Made by a program: the position numbers and the translations under genes. Below, piece by piece: positions 30,162 to 39,460 of a DNA stretch of 64,000 nucleotides. How positions within the stretch are numbered: position 1 is the stretch's first letter; every line of letters starts with the position of its first letter. This stretch comes from Armatimonadota bacterium. Its GTDB lineage: Bacteria > Armatimonadota > Fimbriimonadia > Fimbriimonadales > Fimbriimonadaceae. Where the stretch lies: assembly GCA_018268315.1 (NCBI GenBank), contig JAFDWU010000001.1:225280-289279 (forward strand), written 5' to 3'. The notes under the pieces are model-generated. The model saw nothing but the letters and a program-made list of their open reading frames with translations. It was not told the DNA's origin and ran no database searches.

Positions 30162-31280
30162 CTATTTTAGAGCTTGCTTGGCAATAACCATTCGCTGGAT
30201 TTCGCTGCAACCCTCGCCAATTTCCGTGAGCTTGGCGTCTCGCCAGAGCTTTTCGACCAGATAGTCGGGTGTCATGCCGCGGCCACCATGAATCTGAATT
30301 GCCCGGTTTGTAACTCGGTTTGCAGTTTCACTTGCGTATAGCTTTGCAATTGATGATTCTTTGACGACTGGCAGGCCCATGTCGTACATTCGATAGCCTT
30401 TTTGAAGCAACAGGCGAGCGGCCTCGACTTCCACTTCGTTATCGGCAAGCATGTTCTGAACCGACTGCATGTCGCACAGGCGTCGGTTGAACTGTTCACG
30501 CTGCTTGGAATACTCAAGAGCGAGTTCGAGGGCTTTCTCGGCGATGCCGAGCGCCATGCCGGCGATGCCGAGGCGACCACGGTAAAGCAAGCCGATGGCT
30601 TCTTCAAACTTACAGGGCGTGTGCCAGGCAACCGCATTCGTTAGCTTAAACTGAACTGTGTTGGAAGCGGAGACGCCGACGGTGTGGATGCGCTTTACGA
30701 CTTCAAAGCCCGGCTGAGCGGTTTCCATGAGGAAGGCTGAGAGCTCGGTTTCGCTTGTGCGGGCGATCATGATGATCAGATCCGCTTTACCGCCGTTCGT
30801 GATGAACATCTTCTCGCCGTTAAGGTGGAAGTAACCCGGCTTATCGGCAATCGGCGTGGCCTTAGTCTTTACCCGGCGGGCATCGCTGCCGGCGTCCGGT
30901 TCGGTGAGGCCCCATGCAAGCTTAATCTCGCCCGACATCATGCCTGGCAGATACTTCTTCTTCTGCTCATCCGTGCCGAACGAAACAACGTGTCCAACGG
31001 CAAGAGCATTGCAGGCGGCAACGTTCATCGCAAGCGCGGGGTCGCCCTTGGCCAGTTCCTTGATTGCCTCGCAGTAAGCGGCGCAGGAACGGCCCGGTCC
31101 GCCCATTTCCTTAGGAACGCAAAGGGAGAGGAGACCAGCTTTGCCCAATTTGGGCCAAATTTCGTCCGGGAATCCCTTATTGGCTTCCCATTCGCGCGTT
31201 TTGGGCAGGACTTCAGCGGCCACAAATTCGCGCACGCTCTCAATAAACTTCACTTCGTCGGGGTGAACATCTACAAACAT
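30162..31280 (-). CDS. Acyl-CoA dehydrogenase
   Basis: A 372-residue flavoenzyme. AWGLTEPDAGSDARRVKTKA and GEKMFITNGGKADLIIMIAR bind FAD, and the C-terminal QIHGGRGMTPDYLVEKLWRD then IGEGCSEIQR carries the catalytic Glu in the usual EG position. It oxidises an acyl-CoA to the 2-enoyl-CoA; chain-length specificity cannot be read reliably. It fits with the hydratase/dehydrogenase at 32778 and the MCC-type subunit at 20955 in fatty acid or branched-chain catabolism, though they are not adjacent. Confidence 0.93.
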   Translation of the reverse strand: MFVDVHPDEVKFIESVREFVAAEVLPKTREWEANKGFPDEIWPKLGKAGLLSLCVPKEMGGPGRSCAAYCEAIKELAKGDPALAMNVAACNALAVGHVVSFGTDEQKKKYLPGMMSGEIKLAWGLTEPDAGSDARRVKTKATPIADKPGYFHLNGEKMFITNGGKADLIIMIARTSETELSAFLMETAQPGFEVVKRIHTVGVSASNTVQFKLTNAVAWHTPCKFEEAIGLLYRGRLGIAGMALGIAEKALELALEYSKQREQFNRRLCDMQSVQNMLADNEVEVEAARLLLQKGYRMYDMGLPVVKESSIAKLYASETANRVTNRAIQIHGGRGMTPDYLVEKLWRDAKLTEIGEGCSEIQRMVIAKQALK

Positions 31281-31340
31281 AATCTTCCTATTTCGTCAGT
31301 GTACTACGCCTATCAGGGCTGATTCGTGCTTCGTTCAAAG

Positions 31341-31373
31341 CAAATCAAACCGCGCTAACGGACGCTAGCGCGG
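31341..31373 (-). terminator. Terminator of infC-rpmI-rplT
   Basis: A perfect 8-bp stem (31350-31357 with 31366-31373), 26 bp past the rplT stop on the minus strand, followed by a T-rich but interrupted tract (TTTGATTTG). Confidence 0.65.
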
Positions 31374-31398
31374 CTTGACTCAATTTCGAACCTAACGG

Positions 31399-31749
31399 TT
31401 ACTTGGCTTGGGCCTTAACTACCAGCGCCTTGAAGGCGGCAGGATCGTGGATCGCCATTTCGCTAAGCATCTTTCGGTTGACCTGGATGCCTTGAGCATT
31501 CAGGGCGCCGATGAACTGGCCGTACTTGATGCCGTGCTCTCGGCAACCGGCGGTGATACGAGCAATCCAGAGTCGGCGGAAATCGCGCTTCTTGGCTCGG
31601 CGATCGCGGAAGGCATACTGTCCAGCCTTCATCCACTGTTCGTGGGCGCGCTTAAATACGTTCTTCTTTCGACCCCAATAGCCAGAGGCTCGGTCGATAA
31701 TCTTCTTGTGGCGCTTGTGGCGCATTAGGCCACGCTTAATTCTTGCCAT
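31399..31749 (-). CDS. rplT: 50S ribosomal protein L20
   Basis: A 116-residue protein. MARIKRGLMRHKRHKKIIDR, YRDRRAKKRDFR-type stretch (YAFRDRRAKKRDFRRLWIAR) and INRKMLSEMA-like segment (VNRKMLSEMAI) are L20 hallmarks. L20 is essential for early large-subunit assembly and in many bacteria represses its own operon. Last gene of infC-rpmI-rplT. Confidence 0.97.
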   Translation of the reverse strand: MARIKRGLMRHKRHKKIIDRASGYWGRKKNVFKRAHEQWMKAGQYAFRDRRAKKRDFRRLWIARITAGCREHGIKYGQFIGALNAQGIQVNRKMLSEMAIHDPAAFKALVVKAQAK

Positions 31750-31823
31750 TTATTTTCCTCGTTTGATTGTTTGAACCGTTTCCCAGCCCGAGGGCGGTGG
31801 CGGTAGAGTGACGAATTGCGGCT

Positions 31824-32018
31824 TTAGAGGACCAGCATGCGCTTGACGCGCTTCTGCTCGCCCCGGAACAGTACCGGCTCTTGCTCAAGGCGGCGCTTGC
31901 GCGACTTGCCCTTGTGCAAGAACTGGTGGCTGTTATAGGCTTTCCGGCGGGTGATTTTGCCCGTACCGGTGATCTTAAACCTCTTGGCCGCTGTCTTGTT
32001 TGTCTTCAGCTTTGGCAT
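31824..32018 (-). CDS. rpmI: 50S ribosomal protein L35
   Basis: A 64-residue basic protein beginning MPKLKTNKTAAKRFKITGTG and ending KRVKRMLVL, the L35 pattern. Its start lies inside the end of infC (44-bp overlap), which suggests translational coupling. Confidence 0.97.
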   Translation of the reverse strand: MPKLKTNKTAAKRFKITGTGKITRRKAYNSHQFLHKGKSRKRRLEQEPVLFRGEQKRVKRMLVL

Positions 32019-32571
32019 TTTTCTTCGTTCCGGTTGTCGGCTTGGGAAGGAGGACCATCACCATTTGCTTGCCATCGAGAGAGGGAGATTTCTCCACAAT
32101 TCCGATATCCGCAAGCTGTGCGGCCATGTTCTCCAGCTTTTGCCGCCCCAATTCGGGGTGCGTTACTTCGCGCGCTTTGAACATGCAGACAATTCGGACC
32201 TTATCTCCAGCCTCCAGAAACCTTCGGGCCTTGTTAACGCCAACCATCAAATCATGTTCCGCTATACGCGGACTGATCTTTATACCTTTTACGTCCTGCT
32301 GTTTGCGCTTGCCTTCCCGTTCCCGCTTCTCCATTTCGTATTTGTGGCGGCCGTAATCAATGATTCGGCATACGGGAGGATTGGATTGGGCAGCGACGAG
32401 GACAAGGTCTAGGCCCAAGTCTTTTGCCTGCTGCAGCGCCTGCCTGCTTTGGAGGATTCCCAACTGGGCTCCATCGGCGCCAATGACGCGTACGTCTCGA
32501 TATTTGTAAGTTACACGCTCATTAATGAGCGGACCGATATCCGGTCTCGGGTCTCTGCGGAAGCCCTTTAT
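31975..32571 (-). CDS. infC: Translation initiation factor IF-3, apparent AUA start
   Basis: A 198-residue IF-3. PLINERVTYKYRDVRVIGAD opens the N domain, SNPPVCRIIDYGRHKYE is the linker signature, and the C domain has IKISPRI and a charged tail (residues about 180-198). No ATG, GTG or TTG lies between an in-frame TGA (32578-32580) and the conserved N terminus. The first plausible codon is ATA at 32571-32569, giving M-K-G-F-R-R-D-P-R-P, which parallels the E. coli IF-3 start (AUU, M-K-G-G-K-R). AGGTGAT (32577-32583) sits 5 nt upstream of it. Non-AUG starts in infC are a known basis for IF-3 autoregulation; AUA itself is unusual. Confidence 0.9.
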   Translation of the reverse strand: MKGFRRDPRPDIGPLINERVTYKYRDVRVIGADGAQLGILQSRQALQQAKDLGLDLVLVAAQSNPPVCRIIDYGRHKYEMEKREREGKRKQQDVKGIKISPRIAEHDLMVGVNKARRFLEAGDKVRIVCMFKAREVTHPELGRQKLENMAAQLADIGIVEKSPSLDGKQMVMVLLPKPTTGTKKNAKAEDKQDSGQEV

Positions 32572-32600
32572 TGTCGATCACCTGAAGTTTGATGGGTCAT
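32568..32600 (-). CDS. Ten-codon upstream ORF in the infC leader (putative)
   Basis: ATG at 32600-32598, sense codons M-T-H-Q-T-S-G-D-R-Q and a TAA stop at 32570-32568. The last two bases of the proposed infC AUA are the first two of this stop (ATAA), and the infC Shine-Dalgarno lies inside the ORF. Ribosomes terminating here would sit at the infC start. Its own Shine-Dalgarno is weak, so translation is uncertain. Confidence 0.4.
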   Translation of the reverse strand: MTHQTSGDRQ

Positions 32601-32630
32601 ACGTGTTTTTCTTTTGTGCGTTGCAATTCA

Positions 32631-32636
32631 ATTATA
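32631..32636 (-). promoter_or_regulatory. Candidate -10 element of the infC operon
   Basis: A perfect TATAAT on the minus strand, 60 bp before the proposed infC start. No good -35 hexamer is found at 16-18 nt spacing, so only the -10 is claimed. Confidence 0.5.
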
Positions 32637-32777
32637 TCTTGGGCAGGGCCAAAGAAAAGTTAAGTGTCGATTTTAGGGACGCGATTGGCTAAACCAATGT
32701 TCCAGCGGTCCGGTATTCTTGCGGTCAGAATGGGAGTCACGCCGTTGTCGAATGAATCACTTAATACCGAATCATGG

Positions 32778-34937
32778 ATGAAAGCAAATCGAGTCTGCGT
32801 AATCGGCGCAGGCACGATGGGAAGCGGCATCGCCGCGCACCTTGCGAATATCGGCTTTGAAGTCACACTGCTTGATCTTACGAAGCAGTCGATCGAGGAG
32901 GCATTCTCCCGCTCCAAGCAGGTTAAGCCGCCCCACTTCATGACTACCGAGCGCGCGCAGTCGATCCGTCTCGGATCGCTGGCCGACAACCTTGACTGGA
33001 TCACGGAAGCCGATTGGGTTTGCGAAGCGATCATTGAGCGTCCCGATGCGAAGGCGGAGCTGTTCAAGACGATCGCTCCTCTTATCTCCGAGCGGGCGAT
33101 GATCAGCACCAATACAAGCGGCCTTGAAATCTCGATGCTGGGCGAGCACTTCCCGGAAGAGATTCGCCGCAAATTCCTGGGCACCCACTTCTTCAATCCT
33201 CCCCGCTATCTCAAGCTGCTTGAGTTGATTCCCACAACCTACTCCGACCCGAAGGCAGTCGAAGCGATGACGAAATTCTTGGAGCAGAGAGTGGCGCGCC
33301 GTGTGGTAGTGGCGAAGGATACGCCCGGCTTCATCGCTAACCGTTACGGAATGTGGTCGATGTTCCAAGCCATCCACGTTGCTGAGAAGCTTCGCATTCC
33401 GATTGAGCAGGTTGATTTCATCACGGGGCCGTTCCTCGGTCGGCCGCGAAGCGGCAGCTTCCGACTGAACGACTTGGTGGGCCTCGACATCATGCAGGAC
33501 ATCGCGACGAACCTGATTCAGAGGCGTCCAGGCGATCCGTTCATTGAAGGACTAAAGACGCCGAAGTCGATGGCATTTCTAGCAGAGCGGGGCTGGATTG
33601 GCGAAAAGACGGGTCAGGGCTACTACCGCCGCGAGGGCAAAGAACTCCTTGCTTTTGATCTTGAAACCAATGCGTATCGCCTGCGGCGAGACGGCGGCTT
33701 TGAGTCGCTGAAGGCGCTTGAAAAGCTGCCGCTGGGCGAGCGAATCGGGAAGGCGCTTGAGCTGAAAGATGAGGCGGGCGAGTTCCTTCGCCACTACCTG
33801 CTGCCCATCATGAAGTATGCGGATTACCTGAAGGAAGAGATCAGCCACAGCGTGCGCGACTTTGACCGGGTCATGATGTGGGGATTTGGCTGGGAAGCGG
33901 GTCCGTTTGCGATGATGGATGCGATTGGCCACGAAAAGCTTGGCATGGGTGGCAAGGCGTTCTACAGTGAGGGCAAGATTCTGGATTTCTCGGGCAAGTA
34001 TGTGAAGCCCGAACCGGAGCCGGAGTTCGCCACCATCAAGGACTTCCCGATTCTGTCCACTCACGAGAACTTCTTGATTCGCGACCTTGGCGACGGCATC
34101 AAGGCGGTCAGCCTGACAACGAAGATGGGCGTCATCACTCCCGCTTTGGTGACCGAACTGACAAAGCTCCTAAAGGACCCGCTCTTCGACCGGTTCATGC
34201 TGACCTCGGAGGCGCGAAGCTTTTCGGCAGGGTTCGATCTCAAGTTCTTCCTTGAGAGGATTGAGAAGCATGACGTGGAAGGCATTGAGCAGGCGCTGAT
34301 CGACCTTCAAAAGCTCGGCGAGATGCTTGAGCAACGCAAGGTCGTCGCCGCGGTATTTGGCCACTGCCTCGGCGCGGGACTTGAGTTGGCGTTTAGCTGC
34401 TCAATGATTGCCGCCCACCCGGAGACAACTATCGGCTTCCCAGAAACACGAGTTGGATTGATCCCTGGTGGGCGCGGCACAACCCTGGCCCGCGTTTACA
34501 ACCAGGCGAGCGCAAAGCGGCTTACCGATGTTTGCCTGACCCTTGCCGAGGGAACCACCGGCAACCCGGACCAGGCAAGGACGATGGGCATCCTCAGGAG
34601 CCGAGACGTTACGGTCTACCACCCGGATCGCTTGATCTATGATGCGAAGAAGCTTCTGAAGGTGGTTATGCCTGCCGTAAGACCGGCGTGGAAGCCCTCG
34701 GAAGGGCCGCTGCAGGGAATGATCGACCGAGAGCTCAAGGCCAAACTGGCTGACGACACCCTGACCGAATACGATCTGGTGCTGGGCGAAAAGCTGAAGT
34801 CGGTTTTCGCACGATGTATAACCTACGAAGAGGCACTGGCGAAAGAGCGGTCGGAATTCCTGGACCTTTGCTGGCGAGCCCATACCCAGGGTCGAATTAA
34901 GGCGATGGTCGAAAACGGAAAACCGTTAAGAAATTAG
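32778..34937 (+). CDS. Bifunctional 3-hydroxyacyl-CoA dehydrogenase / enoyl-CoA hydratase
   Basis: A 719-residue fusion. The start at 32778 places the NAD-binding motif (VCVIGAGTMGSGIAAHLANI) six residues in, as in homologues; the open frame continues to 32664. The order is dehydrogenase N domain, dehydrogenase C domain (including GTHFFNPPRYLKLLELI and DTPGFIANRYG), then a C-terminal crotonase domain (ARSFSAGFDLKF and FGHCLGAGLELAF oxyanion segments). This dehydrogenase-first order is the reverse of E. coli FadB. It catalyses two steps of beta-oxidation. No thiolase is adjacent. Confidence 0.92.
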   Translation: MKANRVCVIGAGTMGSGIAAHLANIGFEVTLLDLTKQSIEEAFSRSKQVKPPHFMTTERAQSIRLGSLADNLDWITEADWVCEAIIERPDAKAELFKTIAPLISERAMISTNTSGLEISMLGEHFPEEIRRKFLGTHFFNPPRYLKLLELIPTTYSDPKAVEAMTKFLEQRVARRVVVAKDTPGFIANRYGMWSMFQAIHVAEKLRIPIEQVDFITGPFLGRPRSGSFRLNDLVGLDIMQDIATNLIQRRPGDPFIEGLKTPKSMAFLAERGWIGEKTGQGYYRREGKELLAFDLETNAYRLRRDGGFESLKALEKLPLGERIGKALELKDEAGEFLRHYLLPIMKYADYLKEEISHSVRDFDRVMMWGFGWEAGPFAMMDAIGHEKLGMGGKAFYSEGKILDFSGKYVKPEPEPEFATIKDFPILSTHENFLIRDLGDGIKAVSLTTKMGVITPALVTELTKLLKDPLFDRFMLTSEARSFSAGFDLKFFLERIEKHDVEGIEQALIDLQKLGEMLEQRKVVAAVFGHCLGAGLELAFSCSMIAAHPETTIGFPETRVGLIPGGRGTTLARVYNQASAKRLTDVCLTLAEGTTGNPDQARTMGILRSRDVTVYHPDRLIYDAKKLLKVVMPAVRPAWKPSEGPLQGMIDRELKAKLADDTLTEYDLVLGEKLKSVFARCITYEEALAKERSEFLDLCWRAHTQGRIKAMVENGKPLRN

Positions 34938-39028: not shown

Positions 39029-39460
39029 TTAGCCCTGCCAGTTCACGCGCTCAAGGCGCTCCAGATTTCGCATGTCGCGCTGGCGCTGCTCTAAGGCGGC
39101 GTTTACCTTCTGGACCAATTCCTCGTATACGTCGTGATCTGGCGAATGCTTTTCGATGTAATCGAACGCCCCGCGGCGCATACATTCCACCGCGTTTTCG
39201 ACGGTAGCGTACGCCGTCATAACGATCACCATTGCGAAAAGATCGCGGGCGAAGGCTGCTTGAAGCACTTGGAGCCCGGCTTTGGGGGCGTCCATGCTCA
39301 TGTCCGTAAGAACAACGTCAAACTGCTTGGCTTCCCGTAGTAGGCGGCAGGCTTCGGGCACCTCCGATGTGACGGTGACCTCGTGCCCTTCCCTTTTCAG
39401 GCGGCGCTCTACCGCGCTCAGGACTGCTTCTTCGTCATCGACGACTAAGATTCTTGCCAT
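39029..39460 (-). CDS. Response regulator, receiver domain with short helical tail
   Basis: A 143-residue protein. ARILVVDDEEAVL holds the acidic pocket, Asp53 (VVLTDMSMD) is the phosphoacceptor, and the switch residues T (VMTAYAT) and K (DYIEKHSP) are present. After the receiver only a charged helix of about 20 residues (EQRQRDMRNLERLERV) remains, with no DNA-binding domain, so output is by protein contact. Upstream of and probably co-transcribed with the GAF kinase. Confidence 0.92.
   Translation of the reverse strand: MARILVVDDEEAVLSAVERRLKREGHEVTVTSEVPEACRLLREAKQFDVVLTDMSMDAPKAGLQVLQAAFARDLFAMVIVMTAYATVENAVECMRRGAFDYIEKHSPDHDVYEELVQKVNAALEQRQRDMRNLERLERVNWQG

Follow-up and report, generated by a model that had tools for sequence, protein, structure and literature searches.

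infC, the gene for translation initiation factor IF3, is almost certainly translated from an AUA codon behind a strong Shine-Dalgarno (SD) sequence in the stretch of Armatimonadota DNA analysed here (64,000 nt, hereafter the window), and its leader carries a ten-codon upstream ORF (uORF) that reads over this start in another frame. Comparison of related genomes makes it very probable that selection in the window's family keeps a leader AUG together with a frame that crosses the infC start and ends there or shortly beyond. For the uORF of the window genome itself, maintenance by selection is likely.

An isoleucine codon as the start of infC

On the minus strand of the window, infC (31975..32571) is followed by two genes that we take from their sequence to be rpmI (L35; 31824..32018) and rplT, and a long divergent ORF lies upstream of infC. 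Read from the AUA to its TAA stop, infC encodes 198 aa that match IF3 in Pfam and NCBIfam (PF05198, 2.1e-25; PF00707, 9.6e-30; TIGR00168, 4e-53), with IF3_N spanning residues 16-86 of the AUA-started protein. This is the single IF3_N match in the window's assembly (2.8 Mb, 9 contigs). At the other end of the gene, the last 44 nt of infC (31975-32018) also hold the beginning of rpmI, in a different frame; an overlap of the two genes is found in 35 of the 36 family genomes in which a motif search located the rpmI start, which was not resolved in the other 43 of 79.

The putative AUA initiation codon (32571-32569) lies behind the SD AGGTGATC (32583-32576), which itself contains an in-frame TGA (32580-32578). 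From this TGA to the IF3 domain there is no ATG, GTG or TTG. The first canonical in-frame codon is the TTG at 32463-32461, and we rejected a start there, as it would remove part of IF3_N. The positions that the earlier note had assigned to the in-frame TGA, the SD, the ATA, the ten-codon uORF and the ATAA overlap all proved correct to the base on the minus strand.

IF3_N searches matched 273 of 291 genomes of the phylum, 79 of 85 genomes of the window's family (f1; the remaining six were left out) and all 31 of the order sample. We compared the infC leaders of 173 of the 273, namely 79 from f1, 8 from its sister family f2 and 86 from outgroup families; a related-locus search with a single IF3 protein gave two loci, one of them in Armatimonadetes bacterium SZAS-4. 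With the choice restricted to Ile codons, all 79 f1 genomes show one that is preceded by an SD-like stretch and corresponds in position to the window's AUA; because only Ile codons were allowed, the zero entropy of the first two bases of the start carries no weight. The codon is AUA in 60 genomes, AUU in 11 and AUC in 8, and among the internal Ile codons of infC in the same family 121 of 820 are AUA. When seven codons were allowed to compete by SD, with canonical codons favoured on ties, the start place was unchanged in 84 of the 87 genomes of f1 and f2 (ATA 63, ATT 13, ATC 8) and moved in three, to CTG, ATG and GTG, once each. As far as the conserved IN motif, 82 of the 87 lack any canonical codon preceded by an SD match of at least 4 nt.

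The earlier note had held that a downstream start or an in-frame AUG in homologous leaders would speak against AUA. Canonical in-frame codons turned up only marginally: 76 of the 79 f1 genomes have no ATG, GTG or TTG between the upstream in-frame stop and the Ile start codon, and the other three have a canonical codon upstream with no intervening stop (L049, TTG; L094, GTG/TTG; L095, ATG/TTG). An ATG, GTG or TTG also lies three codons downstream of the Ile start in 8 of the 79, and initiation there would be possible in those genomes. Judged by the conserved codon and its conserved SD, AUA as the infC start, as the earlier note had proposed, is well borne out, and its presence at this place is more than chance. 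A non-AUG IF3 start with an SD, common to relatives, is one mark of the class of autorepressed infC genes, and it is found here.

The same note had suggested a comparison of leaders across the Armatimonadota, and this comparison gave Ile codons well beyond the family. In the other families, the chosen infC starts are Ile codons in 79 of 84 loci, and in 74 of the 75 loci with an SD of at least 5 nt (AUA 31, AUC 30, AUU 13, TTG 1); two of the 86 outgroup loci had no start candidate and nine more had an SD below 5 nt, and the outgroup picks are approximate singly, some in family f3 landing on an Ile codon within the protein's N-terminal part. A predicted Ile-codon start is the usual state of infC in this phylum sample.

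The anti-SD GGATCACCTCC is present in 66 of 85 f1 genomes. A 16S rRNA search of the window's own assembly (2.8 Mb, rated 100% complete) gave no match, so the anti-SD of the window genome is not directly readable. Three contigs (G093:C37, G095:C30 and G122:C61) bear a 16S 3' end unlike that of the family, either in addition to it or in its place, and are perhaps foreign. In two genomes of genus g25 (L073 and L078, 1.5 Mb each), the AUA of infC is kept, with a weak SD (TAAGG/AAGG) and without an overlapping uORF.

Selection on the frame of an overlapping upstream ORF

The uORF of the window (32568..32600, minus strand) runs from the ATG at 32600-32598 to the TAA at 32570-32568 and has ten codons, MTHQTSGDRQ. 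Its stop overlaps the ATA of infC as ATAA, and an upstream stop that overlaps or adjoins the downstream start, as in coupled gene pairs, is thus present. The overlap itself is forced, because AUA followed by A or G always gives TAA or TAG in that frame. We therefore rejected ATAA as a sign of coupling, since it follows from AUA plus a next base A. Going further than the single sequence allowed the earlier note to go, the comparison supports retention of an overlapping uORF by selection at the family level.

An out-of-frame AUG with a frame running over the infC start was found, within the segment -40..-14, in 58 of 79 f1 genomes and 6 of 8 f2 genomes. Outside these two families it occurs in 7 of 75 infC leaders of the phylum. 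Within a leader segment bounded by the -10 box (starting 4 nt past the -10 and reaching to the SD), 56 of the 79 f1 leaders have such a uORF, against 26.9 in dinucleotide-shuffled leaders (sd 3.8, maximum 39 in 2000) and 12.7 in mononucleotide shuffles; with one genome per genus, the figures are 20.5 of 31 against 9.2 shuffled (sd 2.4). The rule with the fixed segment -40..-14, applied to other genes of the f1 genomes and the window, gave 47 of 372 (12.6%; the window's own infC is included in the 372), and 11 of 118 for other genes with an SD of at least 5 nt. Promoter-led control genes with short leaders had a uORF in 0 of 3 in each of two versions of this stricter control, whose three genes each are too small a sample to be informative.

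The excess of leader AUGs as such is moderate (81 against 66 in dinucleotide shuffles); the signal lies in their frames. Frame 0 (that of infC), frame 1 and frame 2 hold 4, 43 and 34 leader AUGs, respectively, against 22, 23 and 21 in shuffled leaders. All but one of the 77 out-of-frame AUGs read past the infC start, and the uORFs of relatives end +1 to +17 from it. In 48 genomes, the infC frame has a stop at most three codons upstream, so that IF3 could not be made from an in-frame AUG, yet the infC frame is still avoided, with 43 of 47 AUGs lying outside it; counted as one AUG per genus, 14 of 15 avoid it, which is weak (p 0.02). By leader, 33 uORFs use frame 1, 30 use frame 2 and one leader has both, and the frame requires a minimum of ten changes on the IF3 tree, one of these changes being for the leader with both frames. 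A programmed frameshift from the uORF into infC was rejected because both other frames are used and no single shift fits.

The first position of uORF codons 2-4 is A at frequencies of 0.66, 0.67 and 0.61 (54-56 leaders; background 0.35), a periodicity that is weaker with one leader per genus (0.64, 0.61 and 0.47; one second codon position reaches 0.58). Leaders from different genera of the window's clade are unalignable, with 43% identity against 40% when shuffled. A conserved leader peptide was also rejected, since the uORF peptide sequences differ between genera. As far as leader sequences can tell, the comparison says that selection acts on the reading of a frame across the infC start and not on the uORF peptide.

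Leader RNA and the position of the upstream AUG

The earlier note had considered that the uORF could add attenuation to the circuit. No terminator-like site was found on the minus strand in 31000-33000, and no Rfam 15 leader RNA matched in the window at gathering score. Transcription attenuation was dismissed for lack of such a site and because the uORF overlaps the gene start. The stretch from SD to start is unpaired at 0.57, against 0.52 in shuffles, and is thus no more structured than expected. RNA structure hiding the SD was rejected, as there is none beyond shuffles, and coupling would accordingly not be needed for unfolding, a point against the coupling proposed below.

A -10 box, TATAAT, lies at 32636-32631 on the minus strand, from which we infer a transcript start near 32624. 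We found no good -35 for infC in the window and no full consensus promoter in 31000-33000. Among the f1 leaders, 70 of 79 contain TATAAT or TATACT without mismatch, its end 35-59 nt upstream of the infC start, and 40 of 79 have a -35 that agrees at 5-6 of 6 positions. Of 48 leaders that have an exact -10, 40 place their most upstream overlapping AUG 4-14 nt past it, where 45% would be expected under a uniform distribution. With a predicted transcript start about 7 nt downstream of the -10, the uORF may therefore be leaderless or nearly so in relatives. The window is an outlier: its upstream AUG stands 30 nt after the -10 box, is not 5'-terminal by the predicted transcript start, and has no visible SD of its own.

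As for other genes, a search of the 80 nt preceding the first in-frame ATG or GTG of 776 long ORFs in these genomes gave 20 TATAMT boxes. Nine of the 20 are only 4-9 nt away from the start codon (6 ATG, 3 GTG) and mark candidate 5'-terminal starts, which thus recur among relatives and are in keeping with the coupling proposed below. One of these is in the window: the ORF beginning MARILVVDDEEA (start near 39460, minus strand), 9 nt after a TATAAT, a candidate leaderless gene whose product we take, by resemblance, to be a response regulator.

Proposed coupling of the upstream ORF to infC

We tentatively favour translational coupling, in which IF3 would counteract leaderless initiation, re-initiation and initiation at the AUA, over a uORF that arose by chance, acts as a brake or serves as a landing site. 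Ribosomes would start on the leader AUG, which lacks an SD and lies at or near the predicted 5' end in most relatives that have one, and would terminate over the AUA of infC. The infC SD, lying inside the uORF, would let the terminating ribosomes or their 30S subunits re-initiate at the AUA. Excess IF3 would oppose each of these steps, so that the leader would act as a multi-step sensor of free IF3 and give sharper autorepression.

Excess IF3 in E. coli inhibits initiation at non-canonical codons and on leaderless mRNAs, as well as SD-less re-initiation (PMC2268962; leaderless review PMC9031893). The layout of the infC leader in this lineage would allow a non-AUG start, a 5'-proximal AUG and re-initiation; since IF3 inhibits all three modes in E. 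coli, such a leader would be a multi-step IF3 sensor. It is possible, if on the unlikely side, that the leader is built in this way, stringing together IF3-opposed modes (a 5'-proximal SD-less AUG, termination and re-initiation, and the AUA) through which IF3 reads its own activity, with the frame kept and not the sequence. Counting against coupling, the E. coli re-initiation data on IF3 concern starts without an SD (PMC2268962), and low IF3 can stimulate leaderless translation (PMC9031893). In its favour, 5'-terminal upstream AUGs (5'-uAUGs) in E. coli affect SD-led genes downstream (PMC4965119).

Chance is the first alternative to be weighed. Taken alone, the uORF of the window is not significant, since on average over the family about a third of dinucleotide-shuffled leaders contain one. 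It is also missing in 21 of 79 f1 genomes, or in 23 under the -10-bounded rule, including the window's closest relative by identity (G132, 68%), and outside the window's clade it is patchy (10 of 31 genera without it, and 10/20 in the largest genus, by the -10-bounded rule). Together with the missing SD and the distance of the window's AUG from its -10 box, this would fit a leader in which only the AUA and its SD are functional, and it also counts against coupling. Against this, the uORF is present in both genomes of the nearest tree-neighbour genus (support 86) and in 29 of 30 genomes of the window's clade, a clade picked with the tree in view; the deep forks of that tree are weak. We consider a chance origin of the window's uORF unlikely.

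The leader AUG could instead act as a brake: ribosomes from it would cross the infC SD and AUA and exclude 30S subunits, keeping basal IF3 low. The uORFs that overlap the start do contain the infC SD, and some E. coli 5'-uAUGs lower downstream expression, which also counts against coupling; a change of the 5'-uAUG raised downstream expression of cmk, iscR, luxS and mngR (PMC4965119). Yet frames ending at the in-frame TGA within the SD would block initiation just as well, and the leader AUGs avoid them. Moreover, if IF3 lowers leaderless initiation, a brake would result in positive feedback. We regard it as improbable.

It is likewise doubtful that the 5'-proximal AUG is simply a landing site bringing 30S or 70S close to the infC SD, with translation of the uORF mattering little. 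The closest precedent is E. coli ptrB, where changing the upstream AUG to AUC leaves less than 8% of downstream expression and an early stop restores 40% (PMC4965119). A landing site alone leaves unexplained both the avoidance of the infC frame and the passage of nearly all out-of-frame AUGs beyond the infC start, and the window's AUG is not 5'-terminal as judged by the -10 box.

The layout offers a direct way to test whether gene control makes use of the action of IF3 against leaderless initiation and re-initiation, which PMC2268962 discusses as proof-reading. infC can be misannotated if only ATG, GTG and TTG are allowed, and misannotation of this kind has been reported for Streptomyces infC in PMC5472188, which calls the noncanonical start of infC well documented. 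Across the sampled phylum, infC appears mostly to start with an Ile codon, and one lineage adds an overlapping mini-ORF whose frame is under apparent selection.

Comparison with known systems

Autoregulation by IF3 has been worked out mainly in E. coli, where infC starts at AUU and is under this control. The window's infC resembles that of E. coli in having a non-AUG, Ile-codon IF3 start behind an SD. In E. coli (NC_000913, GGAGGAATAAGGTATTAAAGGC), the AUU lies 3 nt after the thrS stop, so that a stop of the upstream frame stands beside the start there too; the lineage of the window is thus not alone in having a stop codon next to the start of infC. The two differ in that E. coli infC has AUU with thrS upstream, whereas the window has AUA with its own -10 box and mini-ORF.

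The earlier note had called AUA rarely documented as an infC start, but it is already in print for S. aureus, whose infC likewise has an AUA start with an SD and where retapamulin-trapped ribosomes were found at this codon (PMC13009471). S. aureus belongs to another phylum, and the single infC mention in the main text of that paper does not speak of an overlapping uORF. An open-access search of the literature on infC uORFs, AUA starts and Armatimonadota start codons, covering mostly titles and listings, gave no paper recognisable as describing the present architecture. AUA for infC is therefore already known, and the overlapping uORF is a variation on known uORF and autoregulation schemes.

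The mRNAs with 5'-uAUGs described in E. coli by Beck et al. 2016 (PMC4965119) are like those predicted for the window's relatives in that an AUG at the 5' end, or close to it, precedes an SD-led gene. In contrast to them, the present case concerns one gene in two families, with a frame-selected overlap of a non-AUG start; the transcript ends here are predictions, and the AUG in the window is not 5'-terminal. Finally, iraD (PMC5574718) shares with the infC leader a short upstream ORF and a proposed coupling to the regulated gene, whereas the proposed regulator of infC would be infC's own product.
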